A stretch of 35,051 nucleotides of DNA, taken from assembly GCA_025358765.1 (NCBI GenBank), contig JANYIG010000142.1, forward strand, positions 1 through 35,051, written 5' to 3'. A model generated the notes under the pieces. It saw nothing but the letters and a program-made list of their open reading frames with translations. It was not told the origin of the DNA and ran no database searches. The stretch comes from Candidatus Kapaibacterium sp. (lineage in GTDB: Bacteria > Bacteroidota > Ignavibacteria > Kapaibacteriales > UBA4661). A program made the translations under genes and the position numbers. Below, one piece after another: positions 10,880-14,833 of the stretch (position 1 is the stretch's first letter; every line of letters begins with the position of its first letter).

Positions 10880-11143
10880 TTAACCATAATGCCCTTTGCA
10901 ACCAGCAATAAAGACATCTTCATCGGTTACACGGTAGATTAAACGGTGATTCTCCGTTATCCTCCGCGACCAATATCCACGATATGCACCGTGTTTAAGC
11001 GGCTCCGGCTTGCCTGTGCCTTGAAACGGTGTACGGCGGCACTCCTCCAAGAGCGTAGCAATTTTTTGGAACACTCGCTTATCGTCGTGCGACCAAGCCG
11101 TGAACTCCACAAAGGCAGTACCTTCAAACGAAACGCGCCTCAT
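10880..11143 (-). CDS. yoeB: YoeB/Txe-family toxin (ribosome-dependent mRNA interferase)
   Basis: 87 aa, a typical size for the family. The C-terminus is diagnostic: RRITENHRLIYRV, then CKGHYG, giving His85 and Tyr86 at the positions of the E. coli YoeB catalytic His83 and Tyr84. Glu47 in GKPEPLK and Arg60/61 fit the other active-site residues. Family members enter the ribosomal A site and cut mRNA at codons. The upstream antitoxin gene overlaps it by 4 bases (ATGA), so translation is coupled. The reading frame is intact with no lost catalytic residue, so the toxin is probably active. Downstream the acetyltransferase gene and lpxD follow closely. Confidence 0.92.
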   Translation of the reverse strand: MRRVSFEGTAFVEFTAWSHDDKRVFQKIATLLEECRRTPFQGTGKPEPLKHGAYRGYWSRRITENHRLIYRVTDEDVFIAGCKGHYG

Positions 11144-11397
11144 ACTGTCTGTTCGGTTGGCAGTGGCGCTTTCAGTAACTGCTCCACAAAATTCTGGAAC
11201 TCGTCGCCCTCGAAACCCACCAAATTTTCACCGCGTTCGATATTGTGAATACGGCGCAAAAGCTCTGCATTGGCGGGCTTTGAGTTAAGATGCAACGTGA
11301 GTTCGACGGTCTCGGTTTCGCCGCGAAATGTTGTTTTTAACGCCTCAATAAATTCGGGCGTAAGCTCTTCTAAATGTAGATGATACAGTGCATCCAT
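11140..11397 (-). CDS. Antitoxin paired with YoeB
   Basis: 85 aa. It is called by position and size: it precedes the YoeB-type toxin and overlaps it by 4 bases. The N-terminus (MDALYHLHLEELTPEFIEAL) resembles small antitoxins found with Txe/YoeB toxins in cyanobacteria and Bacteroidota rather than the classic Phd/YefM fold. The C-terminal half (residues ~50-85, with IERGENLVGFEGDEF) is acidic and probably the toxin-wrapping segment. Such antitoxins usually autoregulate the operon, but I could not identify an operator. The start lies 29 bp downstream of the channel-like gene's stop. Confidence 0.8.
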   Translation of the reverse strand: MDALYHLHLEELTPEFIEALKTTFRGETETVELTLHLNSKPANAELLRRIHNIERGENLVGFEGDEFQNFVEQLLKAPLPTEQTV

Positions 11398-11426: not shown

Positions 11427-13169
11427 TTATTGCAACAACTGACTTATCAAACTAACACTAAAAATCGAAAGCAAAAACCAGCCAATCGCGCCTTCCAAGA
11501 CCGCCAGATACCGTGCTATTCCTTGCGCCTGTATCTCGCCATAGCCTAAGGTGACAAACGCATTGATGCTGAGAGCAAACGCATTCACAACACGCATCAC
11601 CGCTCCCCATGCAAGGAAACCTATCATGTATGCGCCCACCGCCGCGCTCGTCCAGAGCTTGCGCCTGCCGGAAAGCTCGTTCCACCGTCCGGGAACAATG
11701 TCAAACCGACTAATAAGCCACGCGCTCACGCTAATGTATCCTTTGTTCAATCCATAAAGCGGCGCACCGAGCCACGCTATAAATGCCGGAACCTCTGTGC
11801 GTGATAGTTCCAGCGTTGTGCGAAAGTTGTGTAAGTCGTCCAATGCGCGGCGGCGCTTGTGATTACTCAGGGTAACGAGGCTTGTGCTGGTCGAAAAATA
11901 GCCAACTACAACGTGAAAAAATGCGAAGGATGTTTGACGGCTCAGATTATCCGGTTCGCTTGGAAACACAAGGTATAATGCGGTAAAGCCGAGAATAACG
12001 GTGAAAATATAGACCAAACCTTTTGCGGGGTTTGTGCCGTAGTCCGAGAAGGTGGCAAGCAGTTCGTTCAAACGCCAATCGAACCACGTTTCGAGCGTCG
12101 GCGTTGTGCGGTGCAGATACGTCGCACGGCGGGTTTCAATCGTTTTGATGGCAATGTAGCAGCCATTCGCGGACTCTCGGTCGCCGCGTGTTTTGTAGAT
12201 GGTGTATAAATCATTGTACGAAGCAAGCAGGCGGTGATAGGCGTATATATCCGCCAGTTCGCTATCAGACTTTGCTTCGTAGCGCTGTTCAGGTCTGCCA
12301 ACGCTGCCTACTAATTTACCCGCAACCTCTGACCACTCACAGATAGTATTTGTCCCAGGATGTTTGAGCAGCGTCAGGTCAAGTGTGCCGTTAAAGTGAT
12401 TGTTTTGTATTCTCAAGGTGTTGTTGATGGTACTGCCTTTGAGGATAACATCGGTATCGAAAGTATTGTCCTTCATATGCAGGGAGCGAAACTCACTATC
12501 AGCAATCAACGTCTTACCTTGTTTGCTTGGATTCAAAAAAGAACATCTGCTAATTCGTACCGTTGTTTTTTCCATAGCGGAACGATCAATACGTAGAGAC
12601 AGAAATTCAGTTTCTGTCGGTGTTGCTACCCACCGCGCTCGTTGCGGAAATTCTCCCGTAAAGGTGCAATCGGCAAAACCCAGTATTCCAACAAGATGGT
12701 TACTGGTGTTTACTATGGTAACACCGTTGCGAAACGTACAGTCTTCAAAATCAATCATGTTGGGCGCAGTAACGTAGGATATGATGACAAGCCCATCAAA
12801 TGTGGAGTTGATAGTTTGAAGAGACTCTGGAAAAGAACAGTTCAGCAAAAAAAATTCTTTCTTGAAATGTATCTTGTCCCAATGCACCCATTTTATCCCG
12901 GTAAATTCTATATCGTCAAGCCGAACAGCAGGTCTGACAATAATGGTGTCCGGCGGATCGTAGCCGTCAAACCGTTGGTCTGTATTCGGGTTAAATTTCA
13001 CCTCGGCGTGTTCCAATGTGTACACAGTATCCTTACACGCTTGAATCTCGGCAAACAACTCCGCGTAGGACAACACACGCCTCGCCGTGCTGTCTTTTTT
13101 AGCAGCAGGGGCAGCAGCGAGTGGTGCGACTGCAAGCGCGAGAATGATGAGGGAAACGAGATAGCACAT
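11427..13169 (-). CDS. Exported beta-helix/pentapeptide-like ectodomain fused to a two-TM K+ channel pore
   Basis: 580 aa from the ATG at 13169; an in-frame TTG at 13229 would add a more basic N-terminus. Residues 1 to ~22 are a signal peptide or anchor (LVSLIILALAVAPLAAA). Residues ~35-320 hold irregular repeats such as LDDIEFTG, FEDCTFRN, FADCTFTG, ISRCSF and DNTFDTDV that suggest a pentapeptide-like or parallel beta-helix fold. A helical linker with ASYNDLYTIYKTRGD follows, then membrane segments near ~385-405 and ~430-450. The end is a pore module: a TM helix with VGAYMIGFLAWGAV, a pore loop with TLGYG (540-544, the K+ selectivity-filter signature) and a last TM helix (AIGWFLLSIFSVSLISQ). 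It is probably an ion-conducting membrane protein; ligand and topology are unknown. A decayed copy lies at 14027-14215. Confidence 0.75.
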   Translation of the reverse strand: MCYLVSLIILALAVAPLAAAPAAKKDSTARRVLSYAELFAEIQACKDTVYTLEHAEVKFNPNTDQRFDGYDPPDTIIVRPAVRLDDIEFTGIKWVHWDKIHFKKEFFLLNCSFPESLQTINSTFDGLVIISYVTAPNMIDFEDCTFRNGVTIVNTSNHLVGILGFADCTFTGEFPQRARWVATPTETEFLSLRIDRSAMEKTTVRISRCSFLNPSKQGKTLIADSEFRSLHMKDNTFDTDVILKGSTINNTLRIQNNHFNGTLDLTLLKHPGTNTICEWSEVAGKLVGSVGRPEQRYEAKSDSELADIYAYHRLLASYNDLYTIYKTRGDRESANGCYIAIKTIETRRATYLHRTTPTLETWFDWRLNELLATFSDYGTNPAKGLVYIFTVILGFTALYLVFPSEPDNLSRQTSFAFFHVVVGYFSTSTSLVTLSNHKRRRALDDLHNFRTTLELSRTEVPAFIAWLGAPLYGLNKGYISVSAWLISRFDIVPGRWNELSGRRKLWTSAAVGAYMIGFLAWGAVMRVVNAFALSINAFVTLGYGEIQAQGIARYLAVLEGAIGWFLLSIFSVSLISQLLQ

Positions 13170-13268: not shown

Positions 13269-13676
13269 TCATGCTTGCTCGCTGCTGTTTTGCTCATTCA
13301 GATAAATGCGTATTTGGGTAACAAAGTCTGTGCTCATCTGACAGAGTCTTTCTGCTTCTTCCCGAGAAATAAGAAATTCGCTTTCATAATCACCAATCTG
13401 ACGCTTCCCAAATGCTCGTGCAAGATTTCTTCCCATTTCTACGGGAAAAATACCCGGAACAATGAAATGTTCTCCAAAAAGCCGATGAATGCCGGAATGT
13501 GTGCTTTGCGTCATCCCTTTCGTCAATAATGCTGCTTCTGCTGCAAAGAACATTGCGTAGTAAGAGCGCGAAACACTAGACTCATAGTCACCTGCATCAA
13601 GCAGTAATTCTGCGCTCTTGCAGTATTTATCTGCTCTTTCCAAGTAAGCGAAACTTTGACCATGGAGAGAACTCAC
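13269..13676 (-). CDS. HEPN-domain protein (UPF0332-like) of an MNT-HEPN pair
   Basis: 135 aa, all helical. SVSRSYYAMFFAAEAALLTKG (residues ~35-54) followed by STHSGIHRLFGEHFI is the UPF0332/HEPN pattern. HEPN RNases carry an R-x(4-6)-H motif; here Arg37 is present, but the expected His position is Phe43/Phe44, so the canonical site is incomplete. Other UPF0332 members also have an aromatic residue there, so this may be normal for the subfamily. The gene overlaps the upstream nucleotidyltransferase by 4 bases. In studied MNT-HEPN modules the HEPN protein is the toxin and MNT neutralises it by adding AMP; I infer the same here. Confidence 0.85.
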   Translation of the reverse strand: MSSLHGQSFAYLERADKYCKSAELLLDAGDYESSVSRSYYAMFFAAEAALLTKGMTQSTHSGIHRLFGEHFIVPGIFPVEMGRNLARAFGKRQIGDYESEFLISREEAERLCQMSTDFVTQIRIYLNEQNSSEQA

Positions 13677-14008
13677 AATACCAATCCTTCGCTACGAATG
13701 TTGATAAGAAGCGGGCTTAATTCATGGTAATAGCGCTCGACAGCCACAGGATAGACTGCAAGTAGTACGCCGTATTCCAAGTTAATACTGTAGGTCGCAT
13801 CCACCATCACATCAATCTCTTCCATTGGCTGCACTGCACCGCGCAGAACAACGGCGACATCTACATCTGAGTCCTCATGCGCCGTGCCGCGTGCGTAAGA
13901 ACCAAACAACACCACACGCTCCAAACGCTCGCCATACAGATTCCGCACGGTTCGCGTGAATGCCTTCAATGGTGCTTGAATGCTTGCTTGTGTGATCATG
14001 GTCTTCAT
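13673..14008 (-). CDS. MNT-family minimal nucleotidyltransferase (antitoxin of HEPN)
   Basis: 111 aa. The DNA polymerase beta-like signature is complete: GSYARG at residues 36-41, then SDVDVAVVL with Asp48 and Asp50 as metal ligands; a third acidic residue is likely Asp66 or Asp70. This is the minimal size for an MNT, with no accessory domain. In characterised MNT-HEPN systems it AMPylates the HEPN partner. The start lies 19 bp downstream of the truncated channel paralogue (14027-14215), and the stop overlaps the HEPN start in an ATGA junction. The initiator could also be the internal Met4. Confidence 0.9.
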   Translation of the reverse strand: MKTMITQASIQAPLKAFTRTVRNLYGERLERVVLFGSYARGTAHEDSDVDVAVVLRGAVQPMEEIDVMVDATYSINLEYGVLLAVYPVAVERYYHELSPLLINIRSEGLVL

Positions 14009-14026: not shown

Positions 14027-14215
14027 TCATTCATTCATGTATGCGCCCACCGCCAAAGTATCCTTGCACACCTGCATCTCGGCAAACAACTCCGCGTAGG
14101 ACAACACACGCCGCACTGTACTGTCTTTTTTCTGCGGTGCTGAGGACGCAGCATAAAGGAGCAGCGTGGGCGCGGCTGCGAGGCTGAGAAGGAGTGTGAT
14201 AAGACGTAATATCAT
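14027..14215 (-). pseudogene. Truncated remnant of a paralogue of the channel fusion gene
   Basis: From the ATG at 14215 a short frame encodes a signal peptide and then KKDSTVRRVLSYAELFAEMQ, almost identical to the mature N-terminus of the channel gene; 37 consecutive bases are shared (14076-14112 versus 13045-13081). After CKDTL the frame jumps to AVGAYM and stops. AVGAYM belongs to a membrane helix near the C-terminus of the full-length protein, and the 20 bases at 14035-14054 are identical to 11624-11643. The copy has therefore lost nearly the whole ectodomain and channel. A short secreted peptide remains possible but is less likely than decay. Confidence 0.75.
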
Positions 14216-14289
14216 GGTTTGAACAAGAATGATATTTGTTGTACATTTCGGAATACCAATCACTCATTTACCGACTAACGTTAAACGTT

Positions 14290-14499
14290 ATGAGTACCAT
14301 TCAACTGCGCGACGAAATCAGGCAATTGCCGCGTACCGAACAAATCTTGTTAGCAGAGTGGATTGTGAAACAATCTACAAAGCCACATCAAATCTCGCTC
14401 TCAGAAGCAGCAGAGCAAATGTTGCATGATTACCAGACCGACACAGAACTTACCGCATTTACGGCTCTTGACAGCGAGGATTTCCATGAAGCGCACTGA
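14290..14499 (+). CDS. Antitoxin of a MazEF-type pair
   Basis: 69 aa from the ATG at 14290, preferred over an in-frame upstream ATG at 14236 because family members start close to TIQLRDEIRQLP. The N-terminal helices (EQILLAEWIVKQS) probably dimerise. The acidic C-terminus (TDTELTAFTALDSEDFHEAH) is the usual toxin-binding tail in Bacteroidota/Chlorobiota antitoxins next to MazF-like toxins. The stop overlaps the toxin start by 14 bases, so the two are translationally coupled. Classification rests mostly on the partner gene and the tail motif. It is divergent from the channel remnant. Confidence 0.8.
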   Translation: MSTIQLRDEIRQLPRTEQILLAEWIVKQSTKPHQISLSEAAEQMLHDYQTDTELTAFTALDSEDFHEAH

Positions 14500-14833
14500 A
14501 ATCTGGTTTGTGAACCTCGACCCAACGCTTGGTGCGGAAATCCGAAAAACACGCCCTGCGCTTGTCGTCAGCGATGACGAGTTGGGGATTCTGCCTTTGC
14601 GTGTTGTTGTACCGATGACCGATTGGAAGCCGCATTACGCCAACACGCCTTGGCTTGTAGAACTTGTACCCGACACTGACAATAGGCTTTCTAAAGCGTC
14701 TGCCGCTGATTGTTTTCAAGTACGTTCTCTTTCTACGACCCGTTTTGTGCGAAAACTCGGCGAGGTGGATATAGACACGGTGAGCGCGTTAGAAATAGCT
14801 TTGGCAAGGGTTCTTGCCATTCCTATCAAATAA
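14486..14833 (+). CDS. mazF: MazF/PemK-family endoribonuclease toxin
   Basis: 115 aa from the ATG at 14486 that directly precedes KRTEIWFVNLDPTLGAEIRKTRPALVVS, the MazF/PemK N-terminal signature. Family members are SH3-like dimers that cut single-stranded RNA at short specific sites. The conserved Arg (RKTRP) and the Thr/Ser of the S3 strand are present, and the C-terminus (VSALEIALARVLAI) forms the final helix. An in-frame upstream start at 14426 would overlap most of the antitoxin and is rejected. The frame is intact, so an active toxin is likely. A short AT-rich gap without a clear terminator separates it from the convergent murF. Confidence 0.93.
   Translation: MKRTEIWFVNLDPTLGAEIRKTRPALVVSDDELGILPLRVVVPMTDWKPHYANTPWLVELVPDTDNRLSKASAADCFQVRSLSTTRFVRKLGEVDIDTVSALEIALARVLAIPIK

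Follow-up and report, generated by a model that had tools for sequence, protein, structure and literature searches.

Relation to Known Channels and Repeat Proteins

HalA (PDB 9nyi; NCBIfam NF051894) is, as we take it, the effector of the Hailong anti-phage system, a DNA-gated channel that is paired with the nucleotidyltransferase HalB. The background on HalA was drawn from PDB and NCBIfam names and from a later paper, PMC13275509. HalA is about 340–370 amino acids long, contains about two transmembrane segments (TMs) and no signal peptide, and its filter was FGY.. in the example read. A Hailong pair on a Sulfitobacter plasmid was used as a yardstick, in which HalA scored 266.6 bits and the HalB-like protein 184.7 bits. 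The HalA and HalB-like pair at L138 2276–4077 (Sulfitobacter pontiacus plasmid pls1) was found to be unannotated, and its nucleotidyltransferase ends in Tyr. The pentapeptide-repeat proteins McbG, MfpA, and Qnr form dimers that are soluble and cytosolic, and each coil of their solenoid has strictly 20 residues. Where the gating of a bacterial K+ channel is known, its control comes mostly from the cytosol or the membrane.

In our study, the window (the whole stretch of 35,051 nucleotides that was analysed) was found to contain a gene that joins an exported repeat domain to a K+-type pore. The best explanation for this gene, with a probability of roughly 0.7, is that it encodes a chromosomal channel of the K+ type whose gate is controlled by a sensor in the periplasm. 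Its protein resembles HalA in plan, with repeats of the pentapeptide type at the N-terminus, then a helical part, and a P-loop ion-channel domain at the C-terminus; unlike HalA, the window protein is exported and contains an additional TM, and it carries the canonical TLGYG filter and has no partner gene. With the two-TM K+ channels and NaK (Ion_trans_2; NaK, KirBac3.1) it shares M1, the pore helix, the T-x-G-[YF]-G filter, and the hinge glycine of M2, whereas it differs from them in that it begins with an exported beta-helix, contains an additional TM, lacks a C-terminal cytosolic gating domain, and has almost no turret between M1 and the pore helix. A right-handed repeat solenoid like that of McbG, MfpA, and Qnr is predicted for the window family, but here the coil contains 21–22 residues and is exported.

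The NCBIfam HalA model gave no match on the window protein. It touched 10 of the 77 family members, and those read singly were matched at the repeats or the pore region with at most 23 bits, against a cut-off of 250; L096 396–574 was aligned to positions 192–336 of the 338 in the model (E 1.5e-4). The pore and linker of HalA gave no significant match when compared with the family's own profiles alone. Judged from these comparisons, HalA is the nearest characterised relative, a distant one in plan and probably in descent too. The window protein itself is not HalA by any of the marks available in the sequence: its score falls short, no HalB is adjacent, and its sensor carries a signal peptide. 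It may be similar to HalA in one sense only, as a repeat-bearing sensor that would gate a pore.

Anatomy of the Channel Gene

The open reading frame of 580 amino acids was intact on the minus strand (13169–11430 without the stop codon), a strand that the first-pass annotation had left unstated, and its translation was free of stops. From the N- to the C-terminus the protein contained a signal peptide, a right-handed beta-helix, a helical linker, TM1, a helical loop, and a two-TM P-loop pore. These parts and their order are well supported, and are listed below.

11427–13169, minus strand: gene of the exported beta-helix/P-loop channel, 580 amino acids, stop codon included (open reading frame, alignment of relatives, AlphaFold2 model)
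13104–13169, minus strand: signal peptide, residues 1–22 (sequence, conservation in every complete aligned member, model)
12300–13025, minus strand: pentapeptide-like right-handed beta-helix ectodomain, residues 49–290 (model, profile matches, periodicity)
12030–12269, minus strand: helical linker, residues 301–380 (model, alignment; a homologous stretch occurs in a Vibrio phage protein)
11961–12029, minus strand: TM1, residues 381–403, predicted to run from outside to inside (hydropathy, model, charge)
11670–11960, minus strand: helical loop, residues 404–500, predicted cytosolic, net positive (model, charge)
11553–11669, minus strand: M1 and pore helix, residues 501–539 (model, pore profile search)
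11538–11552, minus strand: selectivity filter TLGYG, residues 540–544 (sequence, alignment)
11433–11519, minus strand: M2, residues 551–579, with the invariant Gly563 (model, alignment, pore profile search)

The N-terminal signal of the window protein was MCYLVSLIILALAVAPLAAAP, which AlphaFold2 modelled as a helix at residues 2–13 followed by a stretch of low confidence. The linker contained the conserved motifs Y..YK..GD..SANACYVEMK..ETR and F.DYGTNP, and the helical loop was 98–100% identical between some related genomes. The signal peptide, the helical linker, and the two-TM pore with TLGYG that the first-pass annotation had named were all recovered. Its "extra membrane segments" were reduced to one clear TM (381–401), and its repeat ectodomain was found as a beta-helix that is pentapeptide-like, with a coil of 21–22 residues, and not a strict five-residue repeat.

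Structure and Profile Evidence

The structure prediction that the first-pass annotation had proposed gave a model of the single chain (AlphaFold2 with 77 sequences, pLDDT 87.7, pTM 0.78). The beta-helix was modelled from about residue 49 to 289, followed by helices at 302–378, TM1 at 381–401, loop helices at 405–489, M1 and the pore helix at 501–539, and M2 at 551–579. The strands of the beta-helix had a pLDDT of about 90–97, except for a low stretch near residues 171–200, and periods of 5, 11, and 21–22 residues were found in the ectodomain across the family (z 14, 12, and 6, respectively). The pore of the monomer was poorly modelled, since M1 and the pore helix were drawn as one straight helix. 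M2 ended one residue short of the C-terminus and was followed by no cytosolic gating domain in the model; the gating would therefore have to come from the N-terminal side. The gated pore of the first-pass annotation stands in principle on this ground, and the signalling or defence role attached to it is one that we at most infer.

Pfam Ion_trans_2 matched 63 of the 77 members (best E 4.7e-9), whereas the window protein alone was matched at residues 521–577 with 21.7 bits (E 1.9e-4), 0.8 bit below the cut-off of 22.5, so the assignment suggested earlier is solid only by way of the family. The proposed search with pentapeptide models had a weaker outcome, with about 10 of the 77 members matched and the window protein below the cut-off. 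The repeat profile matched HalA (9nyi, E 1.3e-5), McbG-like proteins (2.6e-5), and MfpA (0.008). The pore profile gave 27 PDB matches, all at E 0.03 or worse, of which 26 could be recognised, from the name of the molecule or as a known entry, as chains of K+ channels or of the NaK type; in the alignments shown the filter and the hinge glycine were in register with those chains. Foldseek found no significant match of the whole model in the PDB or among viral models, only weak beta-helix and K+-channel names; similarly, the pore alone gave 21 insignificant matches, including KirBac, Kv4.2, a cyclic-nucleotide-regulated channel, and glutamate receptors.

Family, Conservation, and Distribution

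Matches were found in 10 of the 61 genomes searched, the window's own genome included. From the related genomes 15 full-length relatives were aligned, one of which lacked its start at a contig end, and nearly all complete relatives had the same hydropathy plan: an N-terminal signal, a long soluble part, a TM at about 381–405, and two TMs flanking the filter. In the collection of named genomes 106 relatives were found with the alignment as query, from which 79 loci were kept; an earlier scan of these genomes with the single window protein as query had given no match. The relatives belonged to Kapabacteria, Ignavibacteria, and Bacteroidota, the last including Ancylomarina, Marinifilum, Labilibaculum, Plebeiobacterium, Ekhidna, Psychroserpens, and many metagenome-assembled genomes. 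The spread was patchy: when the phylum was sampled evenly, 13 of 395 genomes had a match.

The filter was TLG[YF]G in 77 of 78 members (TLGFG in 56, TLGYG in 21), followed by SLGFG in one. The invariant columns were concentrated in the linker, TM1, and the pore, and included Gly563, which lined up with a glycine of the NaK inner helix in the printed alignment. This position is presumably the gating hinge. The union of an exported repeat ectodomain with a K+-type two-TM pore, which had been pointed out for the single protein, was thus the common architecture of the whole family. With 15 full-length relatives, 106 in named genomes, and a filter kept in 77 of 78 members, the family is, on these alignments, real and the window reading frame is not a chance one. 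We also take it to be undescribed, as no description was found in the set of papers searched.

Export and Topology

When the N-termini were read one by one, a signal peptide was found in every complete member examined, often with A-x-A or S-x-S followed by Q. A lenient signal-peptide scorer flagged 73 of the 77 members. The four others were L023, at a contig end; L046, where a frameshift leaves the signal peptide in another frame; L060, which is broken beside a TnpB-like sequence; and L024, in which a signal peptide is visible by eye. The same scorer flagged 58 of 116 neighbour proteins and hence is not specific on its own, so the argument for export rests on the small-x-small site followed by Q (56 of 77 members against 23 of 116 neighbours) and on conservation across clades. 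By these measures the export signal and its conservation are well supported.

The mean net charge was +3.1 in the loop and −5.1 in the ectodomain, a direction that fits export. If the N-terminus is exported, the passage through TM1, M1, and M2 would leave the C-terminus in the cytosol, which is the orientation that a P-loop K+ pore requires. In about 12 members a loop helix was so hydrophobic that it could be taken for an additional TM, which would break the parity in those members unless the helix is interfacial. The first-pass annotation had placed the repeats outside the cytoplasm; no homologue with repeats in the cytoplasm, which it had named as counter-evidence, was seen.

Genomic Neighbourhood

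The genes and remnants around the channel gene are as follows.

10880–11143, minus strand: YoeB toxin (YoeB, E 5e-29)
11140–11397, minus strand: putative YoeB antitoxin (position and recurrence; no Pfam match)
13269–13676, minus strand: HEPN gene, a neighbour not judged to be a partner (Pfam HEPN, E 5e-18)
13673–14008, minus strand: MntA-like minimal nucleotidyltransferase (MNT), a neighbour, not HalB (MntA, 39.9 bits)
14027–14263, minus strand: what is left of the leader in an earlier copy of the channel gene, a 78-amino-acid reading frame with homology at 14051–14194, not needed for function (nucleotide matches)
14236–14499, plus strand: putative antitoxin, divergent neighbour of the channel gene (neighbourhood comparison)
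14426–14833, plus strand: PemK/MazF toxin, divergent neighbour of the channel gene (PemK, E 4e-23)

In the window, MNT-HEPN lies upstream of the channel gene and YoeB downstream, and the first-pass annotation had called this wedged position unusual. A meaning of the position was not borne out. MNT-HEPN was found beside the channel at one other locus only (G003/L022), both YoeB and its antitoxin recurred in G002, the antitoxin also in G009, and PemIK in G005; none of MNT, HEPN, YoeB, or PemK was present in about 75 more distant homologue loci, where the neighbours were mostly housekeeping genes. In near relatives the channel gene often occupied the interval from ilvD to ilvB, which also contained a GNAT gene and toxin-antitoxin genes that varied from one genome to the next. 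Since none of these genes occurs in the distant loci, MNT, HEPN, and YoeB are, as far as gene order tells, toxin-antitoxin passengers in the hotspot of one clade and not partners. Nothing in the surroundings of the channel gene points to a ligand or a pathway.

MNT and HEPN were accordingly ruled out as partners of the channel, neither recurring with it beyond the hotspot. A channel serving as regular third component of the Type VII MntA/HEPN toxin-antitoxin system was not found either, the combination being limited to the window and G003. The window MNT was also ruled out as HalB (22 bits against a cut-off of 190, compared with 39.9 bits for MntA). In L111, L112, and L113 the interval between ilvD and ilvB was likewise seen as a toxin-antitoxin hotspot, containing PIN-like, DUF5615-like, MNT-HEPN, and YoeB antitoxin genes (names partly assigned by eye).

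The leader remnant was 88% identical over 78 nucleotides to the intact window gene and 78% over 328 nucleotides to the PemIK-plus-leader locus of G005, where the leader, in a PemIK context shared with the remnant, is intact to the contig end. The simplest reading would be a replacement, in which the body of the first channel gene gave way to MNT-HEPN and a second channel gene. The stop of the remnant lies 18 nucleotides before the start of the MNT gene, and MNT-HEPN may have taken over the promoter of the remnant. A match in contig C314 might have been a silent cassette or an orphaned piece of a pore, but both readings were ruled out: G000:C314 8421–8576 is most likely the C-terminal end of that genome's second, paralog-type channel gene, cut by the contig end, and G000:C188 1–794 is probably its N-terminal half, split by the assembly.

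Divergence of the Ectodomain

In the window's subgroup the ectodomain was 20–50% identical, compared with 85–99% in the pore. Between the window and G002 the identity was 67% in the leader, 21% in the ectodomain, 60% in the linker, 77% in the loop, and 87% in the pore; the corresponding values between G002 and G006 were 79, 50, 82, 100, and 97%, and those of their paralog (the second gene) were 75, 91, 94, 91, and 93%, respectively. The faster protein change of the ectodomain is, in these comparisons, general in the window's subgroup, and is newly reported here. In contrast to it, the ectodomains of the closest Ignavibacteria pairs were 97% identical at a dS of about 1, which indicates strong purifying selection.

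As misalignment can inflate dS, the count of synonymous codon changes was restricted to positions at which the residue is identical and the surrounding alignment is good. The rate of synonymous change was higher in the ectodomain than in the C-terminal half for G002/G009 (40% against 15%, p 1.6e-6) and G006/G009 (41% against 19%, p 1.3e-4), whereas the difference was marginal for G002/G006 (35% against 25%, p 0.08) and also for G002/G003 (p 0.08). No difference was found for G003/G009, for any of five paralog pairs, or for the pairs with the window gene (p 0.3 and 1), for which the test had no power. Recombination is indicated in this way for G009 relative to G002 and G006. A mosaic ectodomain as a blanket claim, for which the naive dS looked decisive, was cut to fast divergence, as only two pairs were supported by the identical-residue test.

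In the window's subgroup the pore changes far more slowly than the ectodomain, whose change comes in part from recombination; this suggests that the ectodomain there would recognise something variable, and that the version in Ignavibacteria would recognise something constant. Four tandem copies of the channel gene were found in Ekhidna lutea (L045 4000–11535), of which copies 1 and 2 were 93% identical in the loop and pore, with silent sites saturated, and 22% in the ectodomain. This pattern would fit mixed tetramers.

Proposed Mechanism and Alternative Explanations

In the mechanism we propose, the signal peptide would export the protein, so that the beta-helix and the helical linker lie in the periplasm, and TM1 would take the chain back into the cytosol. 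There the positively charged helical loop would be followed by M1, the pore helix, and the TLGYG filter, with M2 closing the chain at the C-terminus, and four subunits would form the pore. Binding to the ectodomain, or its deformation, would reach the pore by way of the linker, TM1, and the loop and let K+ flow; the tetramer, the K+ selectivity, the direction of gating, and the ligand are what we infer here. The family is widespread and its exported beta-helix is the sole candidate gate, which would make it a compact model for the extracellular gating of a K+-type pore. The repeat-plus-pore plan of the Hailong effector would exist in an outward-facing form too.

Two alternatives place the sensor in the cytosol. 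The repeats could be cytoplasmic as in HalA, which like other pentapeptide-channel proteins has no signal peptide, the hydrophobic N-terminus of the window protein then being no signal peptide either; the signal peptides of all complete members, the excess of sites before Q over the neighbour proteins, and the fit of parity and charge bias to export make this the least probable of all. Hardly more probable is a HalA-like anti-phage effector, in which a nucleotide or DNA signal from the adjacent MNT would shut or open the channel and HEPN would be a further arm. HalA is indeed the closest solved relative, its model matches ten members in the repeats or pore region, and a nucleotidyltransferase gene lies just upstream of the channel in the window and in G003. 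However, single members score at most a tenth of the HalA cut-off and the window protein not at all, the MNT is MntA-like, no relative of the window MNT or HEPN occurs in the distant loci, and the signal peptide places the sensor beyond the reach of a cytosolic DNA signal.

The other alternatives keep the exported sensor and concern what it is for. A housekeeping envelope sensor of turgor, peptidoglycan, or K+ homeostasis, whose fast ectodomain in one subgroup tracks variable envelope glycans, is the strongest of these, although we put it somewhat below even odds. The system consists of one gene, which is chromosomal, vertically conserved, and under strong purifying selection in Ignavibacteria, and beta-helices often bind glycans; the patchy spread over the phylum and the recombination and divergence in the window's subgroup speak against it. 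A surface receptor for immunity or competition, with a variable ectodomain that recognises molecules of phages, rivals, or kin and a K+ pore whose opening depolarises or arrests the cell, would account for that divergence, for a toxin-antitoxin-rich locus with signs of gene replacement, and for the tandem copies of Ekhidna with near-identical pores and unlike ectodomains, and it has a precedent in HalA. We nevertheless consider it unlikely, since the neighbours elsewhere are mostly housekeeping genes, PADLOC has no model for the family (none of its defence models matched any of the 77 members), the conserved Ignavibacteria ectodomain is unlike that of an arms-race receptor, and searches of collections of viruses, phages, and plasmids did not find the family. 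A defence role is possible. A more far-reaching reading is a little more doubtful still: outward-facing receptors would directly gate a K+ channel in bacteria, and divergence and exchange would have diversified the ectodomain while the pore stayed constant. Such a channel, ligand-gated and of a defence or recognition type, would be a mirror image of HalA that senses outside and not inside. Under the channel with a periplasmic gate that we prefer, the near-invariant pore beneath a fast-changing ectodomain in the window's subgroup makes the target of recognition directly testable by domain swaps.

Related Modules in Phage Proteins

No real relative was found in the viral, phage, and plasmid collections. 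The protein XLL20076.1 (P0002) of Vibrio phage 10N.261.55.B9_PE003 was found to share the linker and the first-TM motif DFGTNPLK with the window family (E 4e-6 at a search size of 20,000; 27.2 bits against 8.0 for the best of 1000 shuffles), whereas it contains neither a signal peptide nor a K+ filter. Because it also occurs in such a protein, the linker-plus-TM looks like a reused module. At its locus (L121 1445–2953) the 502-amino-acid protein is unannotated and lies near a CI-repressor-like gene, as possible phage-borne cargo. A similar C-terminal pore was seen in the phage protein family phrog_15350, which spans 494 positions (E 2.9e-5 against residues 520–570 of P0001).
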